From Verrucomicrobiota bacterium (GTDB lineage: Bacteria > Verrucomicrobiota > Verrucomicrobiia > Verrucomicrobiales > DEV007), in contig JAGWVU010000002.1 in assembly GCA_018970725.1 (NCBI GenBank), positions 62,001 through 126,000 on the forward strand: a stretch of DNA of 64,000 nt, read 5' to 3'. Positions 56,294 through 61,902 of the stretch are shown in pieces (the stretch's first letter is position 1; every line of letters starts with the position of its first letter). The notes beneath the pieces are model-generated. The model did no database searches, was not told the DNA's origin, and saw only the letters and a list, made by a program, of their open reading frames with translations. A program made the translations under genes and the position numbers.

Positions 56294-57601
56294 ATGGCCA
56301 AGGCGTCCCTCCGTGATCTCGATTACAAGGTCTTGCAGCAATGCATGCACTGCGGCATGTGCCTCCCCACCTGCCCCACCTACATCACCTCCAAATTGGA
56401 ACGCCATAGCCCGCGCGGGCGCATCGCCCTGATGCGCGCCGTGGCGGACGGCCGGTTCGAGGCCGGAACGGAACTGGCCCGGGAGATGAACCACTGCCTC
56501 GGTTGCCTCGCCTGCACCACCGCCTGCCCGGCGGGCGTCGACTACGGCACCATGTTCGAGACCGCCCGGGCCGAGACCGAGGCCAACCACACCTCCGGCG
56601 GGCCGATGCGCCGGTTCTACCGTTGGCTCGTGCTGGAGCAGATCTTCCTCTTCCCGGCCCGTTTGCGTCTCGTCGGCTGGCTTTTGCGGGTCTACCAGCG
56701 CTCCGGTCTGGCCGGGTGGGTCCGCCGGCTCAAGCTGCCTTACCTGCTGGGCCGGGACCTCGGTGACCTGGAACCCCAGGCCCCGGTGATGGAATCGCCC
56801 TTCAGCGACGGACGGATCGCCCCGCTGGAAACGCCGCCTCCCGGGGTCCCGGTGCGGGGCCGGGTCGGTCTCCTGAGCGGTTGCATCCAGTCCCTCGCCT
56901 TCGGGTCGGTGAACCGGAGCACCGTGGATGTCTTGCTGGCCAACGGGTGGGAAGTGGAGACGCCCCGCCTGCAATCCTGTTGCGGTTCCCTGCACGCCCA
57001 CAACGGGGCCCCGGAATTGGCGCGCCGGGCTGCCCGGGCGTTGTTGGAGCGTTTCGATCCCTCCCGTCTGGACGCCATCATCACCAATGCCGGGGGCTGC
57101 GGTTCCCACCTCAAACATTACGCCGCGCTGTTCCCCGAAGGCGAGCTGGCCGCGCCCGCCCGGGCCTGGGACGCCAAGGTCAAGGACATCCACGAATTCC
57201 TCGTGGCCACCGGTTTTCGCAAACCGGTGGCCCGGGCCGGGGAGACCGTCCGCATCACCTACCATGAGTCTTGCCACCTCTCGCACGGTCAGGGAGTCCG
57301 CCAGCCACCCCGTGAAATCCTGCGCGCCATCCCCGGCTTGCAGCTCGTGGAACTGCCGGAAGCGGATCTCTGCTGCGGCAGCGCCGGCATTTACAACATC
57401 CTCCAACCCGGGGAAAGCCAGCGTCTCCTCGAGCGCAAGACCGGGCGCATCGGGGAAACCTCCGCCAGCCTTGTGGCCACGGCCAACCCGGGCTGCCATT
57501 TGCAACTCGCCCGCGGGTTGCGGCAACGGGACGCCGCCGTGCACGTGACCCAACCGGTCGTCCTCCTCGCGGAAGCCTATCAACGCGAACAGTCCGCATG
57601 A
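56294..57601 (+). CDS. glcF: Glycolate oxidase iron-sulfur subunit GlcF
   Basis: A 435-residue ferredoxin-like protein. Two [4Fe-4S] sites are CMHCGMCLPTCP and CLGCLACTTACP (residues 17-28 and 76-87). Two CCG domains follow, with LLSGCIQSL, QSCCGSLHAHNG, ITYHESCHLSHG and LCCGSAGIYN. It accepts electrons from GlcD. Length is normal. Its stop overlaps the sulfatase start by ATGA, an unusual partner. Confidence 0.95.
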   Translation: MAKASLRDLDYKVLQQCMHCGMCLPTCPTYITSKLERHSPRGRIALMRAVADGRFEAGTELAREMNHCLGCLACTTACPAGVDYGTMFETARAETEANHTSGGPMRRFYRWLVLEQIFLFPARLRLVGWLLRVYQRSGLAGWVRRLKLPYLLGRDLGDLEPQAPVMESPFSDGRIAPLETPPPGVPVRGRVGLLSGCIQSLAFGSVNRSTVDVLLANGWEVETPRLQSCCGSLHAHNGAPELARRAARALLERFDPSRLDAIITNAGGCGSHLKHYAALFPEGELAAPARAWDAKVKDIHEFLVATGFRKPVARAGETVRITYHESCHLSHGQGVRQPPREILRAIPGLQLVELPEADLCCGSAGIYNILQPGESQRLLERKTGRIGETSASLVATANPGCHLQLARGLRQRDAAVHVTQPVVLLAEAYQREQSA

Positions 57602-59046
57602 AAACCCCGCTCCTCCTGCTGCTCGCCGCCTTCACCGGGGCCGCCGCCGCCGCTCCCCGTCCCAACATCCTCTGGATCATCAGTGAGGACATGTCCCCCC
57701 ATTTCGGGTGTTGTGGGGAGACCGCCATCGCCACGCCGAACGTGGACCGGCTGGCCGCTGAGGGCACCCGCTTCGCCCATGCCCATGTCACTGCGCCTAT
57801 TTGCTCCACCTCGCGCTCCGCGTTGATCACCGGGATGTATCAAACCTCCATCGGGGCCCACCACCACCGCAGCGGGAGGGGAACCGTCAAGATTCACCTG
57901 CCCGAAGGCGTCCCCTTGGTCCCCCGCCTTTTTCAGGAGGCCGGTTACTGGACGAGCAACGGTTCCTGGCCCGGCGGGGGCAAGGGCATCGCCAAGACCG
58001 ATTACAATTTCGAGTGGGATCCGGCGGTCTATGACGCCAACGACTGGGCGGGCCGGCCCGACGGAAAGCCCTTCTTCGCCCAAATCCAGCTGCACGGAGG
58101 CAAGGTGCGCGATGGCGCGAATGCCGCCCGGGTCCTCACGGAAAAGCTCGGCAGCCTGACCGCTCCGGAAAACCTGACCCTGCCCCCCTATTACCCGGCC
58201 ACCCCCGCCCTGCGCGCGGACTGGGCGCTCACGCTCGATGCCTGCCGCCTAGTGGACCAACAGATCGGCGAGATCCGGCGGCGCTTGGAAGGGGAGGGGA
58301 TTCTCGACCAAACCGTCCTCTTCTTTATCACCGACCACGGCGTCAGCCATGCCCGTGGCAAGCAATATCTCTACGCCGAGGGCACCCACATCCCCTGCGT
58401 GGTCCGCGGGCCGGGCATTCCGCGGGGAAACCTGCGGGAGGACCTGGTCGAGCACATCGATCTGGCCGCCACTTCCCTGGCCCTGGCAGGCATCCCCAAA
58501 CCTTCCACCATGCAATCCCGGGATCTCTTTGCCCCGAATTTCGAGCCGCGGGAAGCCATCTTCGCGGCGCGCGACCGGGCGGACGAGACGGTGGACCACA
58601 TGCGTTCCGTGCGCACGGAGGACTGGCTTTACATCCGCAATTTCCTGCCCAAGCGACCCCACCTCCTGCCGAACCATTACAAGGATCACAAGGATTGTTA
58701 TGTGGCCCTGCGGGCGGCGCGGGCCGCGGGCCTGCTCAATCCCTTGCAGGAATCCCTCTTTGCCCCGGAACGAGCCCCCGAGGAACTCTACGATACCCGC
58801 GCGGACCCTTGGGAAATCCGGAATCTCGCCGCGGATCCCGCGCACGCCCGGATCCTGACCGAGATGCGCGGCCGTCTCGACGCCTGGATGGAGCGGACCG
58901 GCGACCAAGGCCGTGAACCCGAGCCCGCCGCCCAGTATGACAGCGACATGGCCGTCTACCTCGGGCAGGGGAAAAAGGGCGTCGACAAGCCCATGATCGA
59001 AGCCAACATCGCCCTCATGAAACGCCTAGCCTCCGAAGGCAGGTAA
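57598..59046 (+). CDS. Secreted sulfatase
   Basis: A 482-residue exported sulfatase with signal peptide MKTPLLLLLAAFTGAAAAAP. RPNILWIISEDMSPHFGC and TPNVDRLAAEGTRFAHAHV begin the alkaline-phosphatase-like fold. The formylglycine motif is CSTSRSALITG (Cys69), with Thr where Pro or Ala is usual. FFITDHGVSHARGKQYLYAEGTHIP supplies later metal-site residues. The substrate sugar is unknown. It is coupled to glcF; the next gene is convergent. PVC bacteria use many sulfatases on algal or host glycans. Confidence 0.9.
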   Translation: MKTPLLLLLAAFTGAAAAAPRPNILWIISEDMSPHFGCCGETAIATPNVDRLAAEGTRFAHAHVTAPICSTSRSALITGMYQTSIGAHHHRSGRGTVKIHLPEGVPLVPRLFQEAGYWTSNGSWPGGGKGIAKTDYNFEWDPAVYDANDWAGRPDGKPFFAQIQLHGGKVRDGANAARVLTEKLGSLTAPENLTLPPYYPATPALRADWALTLDACRLVDQQIGEIRRRLEGEGILDQTVLFFITDHGVSHARGKQYLYAEGTHIPCVVRGPGIPRGNLREDLVEHIDLAATSLALAGIPKPSTMQSRDLFAPNFEPREAIFAARDRADETVDHMRSVRTEDWLYIRNFLPKRPHLLPNHYKDHKDCYVALRAARAAGLLNPLQESLFAPERAPEELYDTRADPWEIRNLAADPAHARILTEMRGRLDAWMERTGDQGREPEPAAQYDSDMAVYLGQGKKGVDKPMIEANIALMKRLASEGR

Positions 59047-59233
59047 CACCGCCGTCCCGCCTGCGGTTTCCCAACCCCCATTGCTCGTTGCGGAGGGGCC
59101 CTTTGATGGTGCGGATGATCCCGAGCGGCGTGAACCCTTGGTTCCGGCGTGGAGGTGGCTGACATCGGTTCAACCACTGCCGCAGCGCGAAGGCGGCATC
59201 CTGACGAATGTGGCTGATGAAGAGCCGGGCCAT
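59015..59233 (-). pseudogene. Possible truncated TIR-domain gene
   Basis: A 72-codon frame whose first 23 residues (MARLFISHIRQDAAFALRQW and three more) resemble the start of bacterial TIR domains (FISH...D...LxxWL). The match then stops and the frame runs on into antisense of the sulfatase end. There is room for only a fragment, so it would be a decayed remnant rather than an active NADase. It starts 27 bp after the NUDIX gene on the same strand. The similarity is short and could be chance. Confidence 0.4.
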
Positions 59234-59260
59234 GGTTCCTTGCGTGCGGGAGGGAAACGA

Positions 59261-60988
59261 TCAATCGGCCCGTTTGGCGGTCAAGTGGATTTGGATGTCC
59301 CTGCGGGCGGCTTCGTCCAGCTTATCCAAGATGCTGGGAAAGCCTGCGGCGGACCTCCGGACTTCACGCGCCAGCCAGGCCCGGAGCATGGGGCCGTGGG
59401 AGGCAAAGCAGTTTTCGATCACCGGCTGCTCCCCTGGCCCGGGCTCGAGGAAGAGTCCGGCCAACGGCATCCATTGGGCGTCCCCGACTTCCTCGGCGTC
59501 GTCGCGCACCCCGCGGGCCCGGAGCACGAGGTCGGGAAGGTCGCTCAGATCGAGCGCGTAAACATGATCCCGGACCCAGGACCGGCTCGTTTCGCGCGGG
59601 TCCCGAACCCTTCCCACAAAGACCAGCTCCGCCCGGTTCGTCCGCTCCTGCAGCTTGTCGAATTGGGGTTGTCCGGGATCGCAGGCGATGGCTTCTTCGG
59701 CCAGTTCCCGGGCCAGTTCTTCCCGGGGAGGCAGGGGGCGGTAGAGGGCGTCGTGGCGGAGGAAGCCGCCCGGCAGAGCCCACCAGGTTTTCCCGGCCTG
59801 TGTCTTCCGGAGCAGAAGGACGGAGTCGCCCCGGGTGACCAAGCCGGTGGCGGTGCCGTTCGGGCCGTGGTAATGGAGTTCCCCCGGTCCGAGGGGCGCG
59901 ATCTTGCGCGGATGGGAAAGCCTGGCCAGGGAGTCGCGCTCCGCATCGGGGCTCCCGGGGAAGAAGAGGGCGTCGGAGGTCGGCCGCGGGATGGGCACCT
60001 CAAGCTCGAAGAAACCCTGATTGCCCGTTTCCGTCCCGGGCTCTCTGGCTTTTTGCCAGAGCCCAGTCATACGCTTTGCCTTCCTGCGCGCGCAAGTTTC
60101 CGTCCCGGGCTCTCTGGCTTTTTGCCAGAGCCGCGCCACCTGAGCCATGGCGACGTAGCGTTTGCGGTCGAGAGGGCGGGGAGGGGTCCCGAGTTCCTTG
60201 ATGAGGCGGTCGATCGCGCCCTCGCCTTCCAGGGTCACCCGGCCGCTCCGCTCCAGCTTCTTTCGAAACTCGTCGGCCCCCGGGGTCGAACCTGCGGACT
60301 TAAACTCCACATGATGTTCCTCACAAAGTTCGTCGAGCAAGGCGGATGGGGTCGTCTCGGTGGCAGTCGCTTCCCGCCGGGTCCAGGCGAGGAGTGCCTC
60401 GATGGAGTCCCGCGGAAAGAGCAGGACCCGGATTTTCTGTTTGCTCAGTCCGCCGGATTTGGACTTGGCGTTGGGAGGCAGGACCTCGAGGAAGTGGAAG
60501 CCTTCCTCGGGAGGCTGGAAGCGTGGCTCGCAAGTCAGAGCGCCGACGAAGGCGGCCGATTCAAAGACTTCCCCGCGGGCTTGGCGGCCCACCACATCGA
60601 GAACATTGACCTGCCGGCCATAGATCTGGTTGCGCACGGCGTCGTTGATCAGTTTGGTGAAATCCCCGAGTTGCTTCTCGGAGAGGATGATCGCGTCCGG
60701 TTTGGTCGATTGGCTTGCGCTCAGGATCTTGCGGACCAGAGTTTCGTTCAGCTCTCCGGCCAGCAGATGGGTCAGGGGAAGTTCCCACTGGGTCCGGATG
60801 TGCATGGCGCCGTGCTGGAAGTAGGTTAGGCTGACATCGACGAGATCGCTGAGCGAGTGGGAACGAACTTTGCGGGCATTCTTCCATCGGAGAAACCGGC
60901 TCCAAAGCAAGGTGCCGAACGCACCGACGCCTGCGGCGATGTATTCGGAAAGGTCGAGATGCGGGAGATGGGAGAGGAAGGGTGGCAT
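59261..60988 (-). CDS. NUDIX hydrolase fused to a membrane-anchored unknown domain
   Basis: A 575-residue protein. A likely membrane segment is near the N-terminus (IAAGVGAFGTLLWSRFL). Residues ~40-285 are an unrecognised domain. Residues ~285-320 contain a duplicated LWQKAREPGTET segment. Residues ~360-545 are a NUDIX domain: KTWWALPGGFLRHDALYRPL and then ELARELAEEAI, a degenerate NUDIX box (REUXEE kept). It may hydrolyse NAD-related or ADP-ribose compounds. It lies 24 bp after another NUDIX gene. Likely one operon. Confidence 0.75.
   Translation of the reverse strand: MPPFLSHLPHLDLSEYIAAGVGAFGTLLWSRFLRWKNARKVRSHSLSDLVDVSLTYFQHGAMHIRTQWELPLTHLLAGELNETLVRKILSASQSTKPDAIILSEKQLGDFTKLINDAVRNQIYGRQVNVLDVVGRQARGEVFESAAFVGALTCEPRFQPPEEGFHFLEVLPPNAKSKSGGLSKQKIRVLLFPRDSIEALLAWTRREATATETTPSALLDELCEEHHVEFKSAGSTPGADEFRKKLERSGRVTLEGEGAIDRLIKELGTPPRPLDRKRYVAMAQVARLWQKAREPGTETCARRKAKRMTGLWQKAREPGTETGNQGFFELEVPIPRPTSDALFFPGSPDAERDSLARLSHPRKIAPLGPGELHYHGPNGTATGLVTRGDSVLLLRKTQAGKTWWALPGGFLRHDALYRPLPPREELARELAEEAIACDPGQPQFDKLQERTNRAELVFVGRVRDPRETSRSWVRDHVYALDLSDLPDLVLRARGVRDDAEEVGDAQWMPLAGLFLEPGPGEQPVIENCFASHGPMLRAWLAREVRRSAAGFPSILDKLDEAARRDIQIHLTAKRAD
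60027..60132 (-). repeat. 37-bp direct repeat with internal hairpin, in frame in the NUDIX gene
   Basis: GTTTCCGTCCCGGGCTCTCT and the following 17 bp occur twice, at 60027-60063 and 60096-60132, 69 bp apart (23 codons, so in frame). Each copy holds an imperfect hairpin, GGCTCTCTGGC-TTTTT-GCCAGAGCC. It codes for LWQKAREPGTET twice. It resembles a REP-like palindromic element inside a gene. Confidence 0.85.
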
Positions 60989-61012
60989 GGTGCTGATGAG
61001 GGTTGGCCGGGT

Positions 61013-61732
61013 TCAGGTTTGGTGATCTCCGAGGGAGGCTTCGTCCAAGATGGAGCCCACGAGCGCGGCCAGTTCCCTGGCGGGCATCCCGCGGCGCCGG
61101 GCGCGCTGCAGCAGCAGGAGGAGCAGGCCGAGCTTTTCCTGGTTGTTGTGCAGGTCCCGGAACAGGGCGGGCGTGAGGGGGCGGACGTGGCTGGTGACCG
61201 CTTCCGCCTCTCCCCGCGCCCCGTGGGTCCGCGCATGAAGTTCCGGTACGCTCAGGCCCTCGGGAAGGCGGATTTGCGCCTCGTAAAGGGCGACTTGTTC
61301 GTTGGTGCCTCCGGGCGAAACGAAATCGGCCCCGGCGAAGGTGGGGATCAGGCGCACCTCGAGCAGCCAGGAGGGTTGGATTCCCAATTCCTCCTGCAAC
61401 TCACGTTCCGCCAGCGAACGCAAGGCCTCCGCCCGGTCGTTGGACCCGGCGGCAAATCCGGTCAGCCGCAGGCCCGCCCCGGCGCGGAACTCCTCCCCCA
61501 AAACGGTCCAGGCGGCACCGTCGGGGGTCTCGATTACCGGAATGATGAAGGCGCTGTTCTGCCGGAGCAGCCCGATCCGGGTGGCGGCGGTTCCGTAGAT
61601 GGCGGGCGGCAATTCCACCCGGAACAATTCCAGGAACTTCCCGAGGCGCCGGAACGGCCGCCCCGCCGTCCCCCCAACCGCACGAATCCGCGCATACCAA
61701 TCCGCAATCGCATCCAGCCCGCCAATGATCAT
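61013..61732 (-). CDS. NUDIX hydrolase
   Basis: A 239-residue protein with a full NUDIX box at residues 96-118: GSNDRAEALRSLAERELQEE LGI fits Gx5Ex7REUxEExGU. The N-terminal ~90 residues are of unknown type and the C-terminal tail is helical and Leu-rich (LLLLLLQRARRRG). The substrate is unknown; NUDIX enzymes cleave nucleoside diphosphates linked to other groups. It lies upstream of the membrane NUDIX gene with a 24-bp gap, so the pair is likely an operon. Confidence 0.85.
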   Translation of the reverse strand: MIIGGLDAIADWYARIRAVGGTAGRPFRRLGKFLELFRVELPPAIYGTAATRIGLLRQNSAFIIPVIETPDGAAWTVLGEEFRAGAGLRLTGFAAGSNDRAEALRSLAERELQEELGIQPSWLLEVRLIPTFAGADFVSPGGTNEQVALYEAQIRLPEGLSVPELHARTHGARGEAEAVTSHVRPLTPALFRDLHNNQEKLGLLLLLLQRARRRGMPARELAALVGSILDEASLGDHQT

Positions 61733-61902
61733 GCCGCATCCTAACGCAGGGTGGGGGATTGGCTCAAGTGAAGATCCGGGTGGTCACCCCATCCGACCGG
61801 ACAATCAAGCAGGTTGACCGTTGGACGCCGCGCCGCTTTTGCCGGCGGCGCGGAAGGAACTTGACGGTTCTCTGGTGGTCAACTACCCTTCCATCCAAGC
61901 TG

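Follow-up and report, generated by a model that had tools for sequence, protein, structure and literature searches.

Two Nudix genes beside the remnant of a TIR-nSTAND1-FGE gene in a Verrucomicrobiota genome: a possible decayed NAD+/ADP-ribose conflict locus

The 64-kb stretch of Verrucomicrobiota DNA analysed here (hereafter the window) contains two intact genes for Nudix proteins, N1 and N2, followed on the same strand by a short open reading frame that homology identifies as the pseudogene of a large TIR-nSTAND1-FGE gene. We give about even chances to the locus being what is left of an operon of three genes, N1-N2-(TIR-nSTAND1-FGE), that served in NAD+/ADP-ribose conflict. As the third frame is the remnant of a TIR protein and both Nudix proteins appear, by their motifs, to be directed at ADP-ribose, the DNA is best read as a degraded NAD-linked locus.

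Results

The three frames lie on the minus strand in the order N1, N2 and TIR-like ORF (Table 1), with 24 nt between the end of N1 and the start of N2 and 27 nt between the N2 stop and the ATG of the TIR-like ORF, which is preceded by a Shine-Dalgarno-like AAGGA. Two tandem NUDIX genes beside a TIR-like fragment had been proposed from an initial sequence-only reading, and both Nudix frames are indeed intact. GC by codon position is coding-like in N1 (0.72/0.49/0.82) and N2 (0.69/0.47/0.78) and follows the same pattern in the TIR-like ORF (0.63/0.54/0.75). Long plus-strand ORFs opposite N2 (59081-60829) and N1 (60857-61744) were rejected as genes since homology favours the minus strand; they are a high-GC effect. 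The last codons of the TIR-like ORF overlap the 3' end of a convergent sulfatase gene (57598-59046), and on the opposite flank the next gene recognised by Pfam is a plus-strand outer-membrane efflux gene. None of the adjoining window genes, which encode a sulfatase, an Fe-S/CCG oxidoreductase and an efflux protein, is a defence gene; the locus itself lies outside any recognised defence island, and its intergenic DNA does not belong to a repeat family.

Table 1. Features of the Nudix and TIR-remnant locus, in window coordinates
Feature	Position	Strand	Description	Basis
N1	61013..61732	-	soluble Nudix protein of 239 aa, encoded first in the set	ORF
N1 Nudix box GSNDRAEALRSLAERELQEELGI	61379..61447	-	residues 96-118	full-consensus match
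N1 SPGGTNE loop	61298..61318	-	residues 139-145	ADP-ribose pyrophosphatase signature position
N2	59261..60988	-	575 aa; N-terminal-helix family domain and C-terminal Nudix domain	ORF, Pfam, family homology
N2 N-terminal module	59993..60988	-	residues 1-332, with inserts	alignments to standalone relatives
In-frame partial duplication in N2	60027..60132	-	two identical 37-nt copies of LWQKAREPGTET, 69 nt apart (60027-60063 and 60096-60132)	
N2 Nudix domain	59444..59848	-	residues 381-515	Pfam match
N2 Nudix core RELAEE	59693..59710	-	residues 427-432	REUXEE intact
N2 DPRETSRSW motif	59576..59602	-	residues 463-471	common to TRPM2 NUDT9-H
TIR-like ORF	59015-59233	-	72 aa, 3' of N2	
TIR remnant	59159..59233	-	residues 1-25	63% identity to L080 5685-5765
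nSTAND1 remnant	59072..59149	-	residues 29-54, just past Walker A	62% to L080 4983-5060
Homology end	59047..59071	-	about 930 STAND and FGE codons gone up to the sulfatase stop at 59046	

The product of the TIR-like ORF, taken alone, gave no Pfam, PADLOC or NCBIfam match, and its dismissal after these empty scans was overturned when a search of 75 genomes of the family returned a parent protein. In genome G027, a single open frame of 1,203 codons matches both residues 29-54 of the fragment (62%, E = 1.9e-4) and residues 1-25, the two blocks being collinear. Residues 29-54 also match contig C103 of the genome under study at 58% (L081 12290-12367). Aligned to the G027 protein, the blocks score 74 and 87, where shuffled sequence averages 26 and 30 (sd about 4), so that each block lies about 13 sd above shuffles. 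The proposed homology to a TIR protein thus holds, at 62-63% in two collinear blocks of one TIR-nSTAND1-FGE protein, but the label “TIR-like” fits only the first 25 or so residues, the second block being nSTAND1. About 208 codons are missing between the blocks and the TIR start is fused to post-Walker A sequence, which on the alignment is an internal deletion joining the two parts. What is retained amounts to about 51 of some 1,190 residues, about 4% of the parent, and no TIR, Walker A or FGE domain is left complete. Because these internal codons and everything past residue 54 have been lost, the product cannot act as a TIR NADase or STAND switch.

The parent-type protein of G027 (L080) has 1,192 aa and the architecture TIR_2-nSTAND1-FGE-sulfatase. 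The C103 copy (L081) consists of TIR-nSTAND1, after which come a premature stop and disrupted FGE sequence, and its TIR start is degraded. Both match PF20703 and PF13676, and L080 additionally matches PF03781. The C103 copy adjoins HmaA, HmaB, HEC-01A, HEC-01B and a dynamin-like protein, with which it makes up a defence island (L081 1-13156) that runs HmaB, HEC-01B, HEC-01A, dynamin-like protein, HmaA and then the TIR-nSTAND1-FGE copy, near the contig end. Proteins of the TIR/EAD-nSTAND1-FGS type are predicted to counter invaders and are often linked to diversity-generating retroelements, according to two reports (PMC8195603, PMC10907252). This predicted role and the Hma/HEC-01 genes beside the C103 copy place the parent gene in a defence setting. 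At a strict cut-off of 1e-30 a TIR-nSTAND1 profile matched in this genome only among 384 genomes of the class, a draw that evidently did not hold the G027 copy; plasmids yielded a few TIR-nSTAND1 proteins, viral contigs and phage records no such protein. On a Sinorhizobium plasmid (L084 6097-12982) the relative lies directly 3' of a serine protease gene and is followed by small genes, its neighbours being partners other than Nudix. Contig C88 of the genome under study carries a 387-aa gene (L008 1477-2640) with, by eye, an N-terminal TIR and a C-terminal FGE-like region; no STAND domain was seen in it.

The Nudix box of N1 fits GX5EX7REUXEEXGU exactly and is the sole full-consensus box in the six frames of the window. 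The SPGGTNE loop follows about 20 residues further on. Loops of the form SPGxxxE or SSPGxxxE mark NudF/NUDT5-type ADP-ribose pyrophosphatases, the counterpart in E. coli NudF being SPGGTSE, and N1 has such a loop 3' of its box, as the NudF type does. Against PF00293 the protein scores 16.9 bits (E = 0.0065), under the gathering cut-off of 21.1 bits, which is a curated threshold rather than a biological definition. Its top PDB matches are NudF, NudE, an ADP-sugar pyrophosphatase and MutT/nudix proteins, at E values of only 0.05-1.6. Weak relatives (E 7e-6 to 1e-3) that carry a Nudix box occur in other families of the phylum, most of them with the SSPGxxxE loop. By these features N1 looks like an ADP-ribose pyrophosphatase.

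The Nudix domain of N2 scores 21.1 bits against PF00293 (E = 3.4e-4), exactly at the gathering cut-off. Its core matches the REUXEE consensus given in PMC6461439, and a 5-residue insert ahead of this core disrupts the spacing of the full box. In phmmer the second PDB match is Nematostella TRPM2 (6co7), with a weak E of 0.3 and an alignment that spans WAxPGG and GxVxDPRxTxxxW. The Nudix domain of this TRPM2 is an active ADPRase (PMC6461439) and, from this and the motif features together, we infer that the Nudix domains of both N1 and N2 act on ADP-ribose compounds.

The N-terminal module of N2 belongs, in diverged form, to an unnamed family of proteins of about 208 aa that have an N-terminal helix. 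Profile matches between module and family run in both directions, and the two have in common the motifs DxVxxSL, GxxxxRTxxE, LTCE and RKxRxM and a terminal strand. In the alignment, the last strand of the family, FxxLEVCV, falls on FFELEVPI (about N2 residues 325-332), which makes the module longer than the “unknown 240-residue domain” first described. Standalone members (compared: L003, L026, L030-L034 and L044) occur in the genome under study (L026/L027, contig C77), in both other members of the genus searched, in two further members of the family, and in one myxobacterial (Myxococcales) MAG and one Gemmata MAG. No TIR gene or adjacent Nudix gene stands beside them, the lone Nudix gene near one member (L028) being about 2 kb off with two genes between, so the earlier proposal that this domain is an effector is unsupported. 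Consistent defence neighbours of the standalone members were not found either. Genes near the C77 member include one with a PIN domain and one resembling FAD-dependent oxidoreductases.

The module matched no Pfam or PDB family and contains no pore-like or enzymatic signature. The AlphaFold2 model of the family is moderate (mean pLDDT 77), and its comparison with PDB structures gave no confident fold. Nudix-fold chains were scattered among the structure matches at Z 3.3 or less, with no profile-profile match to Nudix, and a Nudix-like fold was not adopted on these grounds. The full-length N2 model (mean pLDDT 49) made a fold search meaningless. AlphaFold2 predicts the N-terminal helix of N2, which its family shares; the hydropathy maximum of this helix is 1.06, below the usual threshold of 1.6, but two relatives exceed that value, so that the “membrane-anchored” NUDIX protein keeps its helix while its anchoring becomes plausible rather than firm. 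The partial duplication lies within an insert of the module and each copy holds the hairpin CTCTGGC-TTTTT-GCCAGAG; as the whole genome has two copies, both in N2, a genome-wide REP/MITE element was rejected. A second match to N2 in its own genome, on contig C9, was rejected as the antisense of a peptidase gene. In genome G701 a short ORF (L067 1504-1659) matches the C-terminal tail of N2, CFxSHxPxxxAWL, at E 9e-7 within the locus; it has no upstream Nudix domain and is possibly another remnant.

A second NUDIX-NUDIX-TIR locus was not found. The 75 family genomes contain no orthologs of N1 or N2, and neither these proteins nor the N-terminal module had matches on plasmids, phages or viral contigs. 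No Nudix box lies near any of the 7 further TIR loci in this genome, near the TIR-nSTAND1 locus of G027 (where a divergent DUF2971 gene is upstream) or near 3 plasmid relatives. The search for intact TIR-NUDIX-NUDIX sets in relatives thus came out negative, and the association rests on one locus. There it is based on co-direction, tight spacing, the AAGGA at the start of the remnant and matching chemistry, TIR making ADP-ribose and both neighbours looking like ADP-ribose Nudix enzymes.

Discussion

The idea of a degraded NAD-linked locus is favoured by the TIR remnant and the ADP-ribose-type Nudix motifs, and set back by the lack of any intact three-gene set among the genomes searched. For a decayed operon we count the two collinear blocks from one TIR-nSTAND1-FGE ORF, whose paralog sits among HmaA/HmaB and HEC-01A/B, the closely spaced co-directional frames and the ADP-ribose-type features of N1 and N2. 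Against it we count the lone locus without N1/N2 orthologs, the weak TRPM2/NUDT9 match (E 0.3), the only moderately hydrophobic N2 helix and the position of the locus outside a recognised defence island. Nudix domains are reported to recur in NAD/ADPr conflict systems (PMC9503650, PMC7159879). In the operon that we envisage, the FGE/STAND protein would sense an invader and the TIR domain would then cut NAD+ into ADP-ribose products, on which N1 (soluble, NudF-like) and N2 (NUDT9/TRPM2-like, on a helix module) would act. The likeliest role of the Nudix proteins would be the hydrolysis of ADP-ribose to AMP and ribose-5-phosphate, which could keep the signal short or limit self-damage, or could deny phage the ADP-ribose from which phages are reported to rebuild NAD+ (PMC12774641). 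Alternatively, N2 might sense ADP-ribose at the membrane. The TIR-STAND gene would later have been lost bar about 51 codons, and N1 and N2 would remain as orphans, still intact. What the sequences show is the two Nudix ORFs, their order and spacing with the remnant, the parentage of that remnant and the defence-island setting of its parent family; former joint function, substrates, location at the membrane and mechanism are inferred from these. Rather unlikely, in our view, is an undescribed kind of immune module that encodes an FGE-sensing TIR-STAND NADase along with two ADP-ribose Nudix partners, a soluble one and a membrane-tethered NUDT9/TRPM2-like one, and in which the products of NAD+ cleavage would either be destroyed or be read out at the membrane, for example to keep from phages the ADP-ribose for NAD+ rebuilding.

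The main rival, which has a substantial though lesser probability than the operon, is chance adjacency of an independent N1-N2 housekeeping or nucleotide-cleaning unit and a TIR-STAND gene decaying beside it in a variable spot. Defence genes often decay in variable genomic spots, N1 and N2 are still intact after the loss of the TIR gene, and a Nudix-TIR neighbourhood is missing from the comparison loci (7 in this genome, the G027 copy and 3 on plasmids). Chance would however have to account for co-direction, gaps of 24 and 27 nt and the AAGGA kept at the start of the remnant, as well as for two neighbours that both look ADP-ribose-directed. A self-sufficient two-gene system, with the helix module of N2 as output, its Nudix domain as ADP-ribose sensor and the TIR gene as an alternative signal source, is improbable. 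The open frames of N1 and N2 with their coding-like GC3 (0.82 and 0.78) would suit it, and so would the helix module, which stands alone in distant phyla and is thus a real domain, N2 looking like a secondary fusion of this module with a Nudix domain; but the module has no pore-like or enzymatic signature, defence genes do not lie consistently beside its standalone members, and the REUXEE core of N2 predicts hydrolysis over pure sensing. That the TIR-like frame is a chance ORF, as its empty profile scans might suggest, is refuted by its two high-scoring blocks in the right order of one TIR-nSTAND1 protein and by the match to a copy in the same genome.

If the link of the decayed operon is true, TIR-STAND immunity gains partners that destroy ADP-ribose, by which the host would counter phage pathways that recycle ADP-ribose to reconstitute NAD+ (PMC12774641), and an immune-type operon would supply a bacterial case of a NUDT9/TRPM2-like Nudix domain fused to a putative membrane helix. 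Even if it is false, an unnamed conserved protein family has been defined, and a single genome holds decayed and better-preserved copies of the same TIR-STAND gene.

Compared with known systems, N1 resembles the NudF/NUDT5 ADP-ribose pyrophosphatases in its Nudix box and SPGxxxE loop, and differs from them in being diverged, with no ortholog found and a Pfam score under the cut-off, and in its extra N- and C-terminal segments and longer box-to-loop spacing. N2 has, like NUDT9 and the NUDT9-H domain of TRPM2, WALPGG, the REUXEE core and GxVxDPRxTxxxW in a Nudix domain joined to a membrane part, putative in N2; unlike the TRPM2 channel it is bacterial, only weakly similar (E 0.3), has the 5-residue box insert and carries a single putative helix. 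Thoeris (ThsA-type effector and TIR ThsB) gave no PADLOC match in N1, N2 or the fragment. The likeness to Thoeris and other TIR defence would lie in TIR NADase signalling and a second gene that acts on or senses ADP-ribose products; here, however, Nudix genes take the place of a SIR2-SLOG or macro effector, the TIR is fused to a STAND NTPase, and the TIR gene is dead. The excerpts describing TIR/EAD-nSTAND1-FGS proteins mention no Nudix partner (PMC8195603, PMC10907252). It is from this same TIR/EAD-nSTAND1-FGE(FGS) architecture that the remnant derives, with about 51 residues left here and two Nudix genes upstream.
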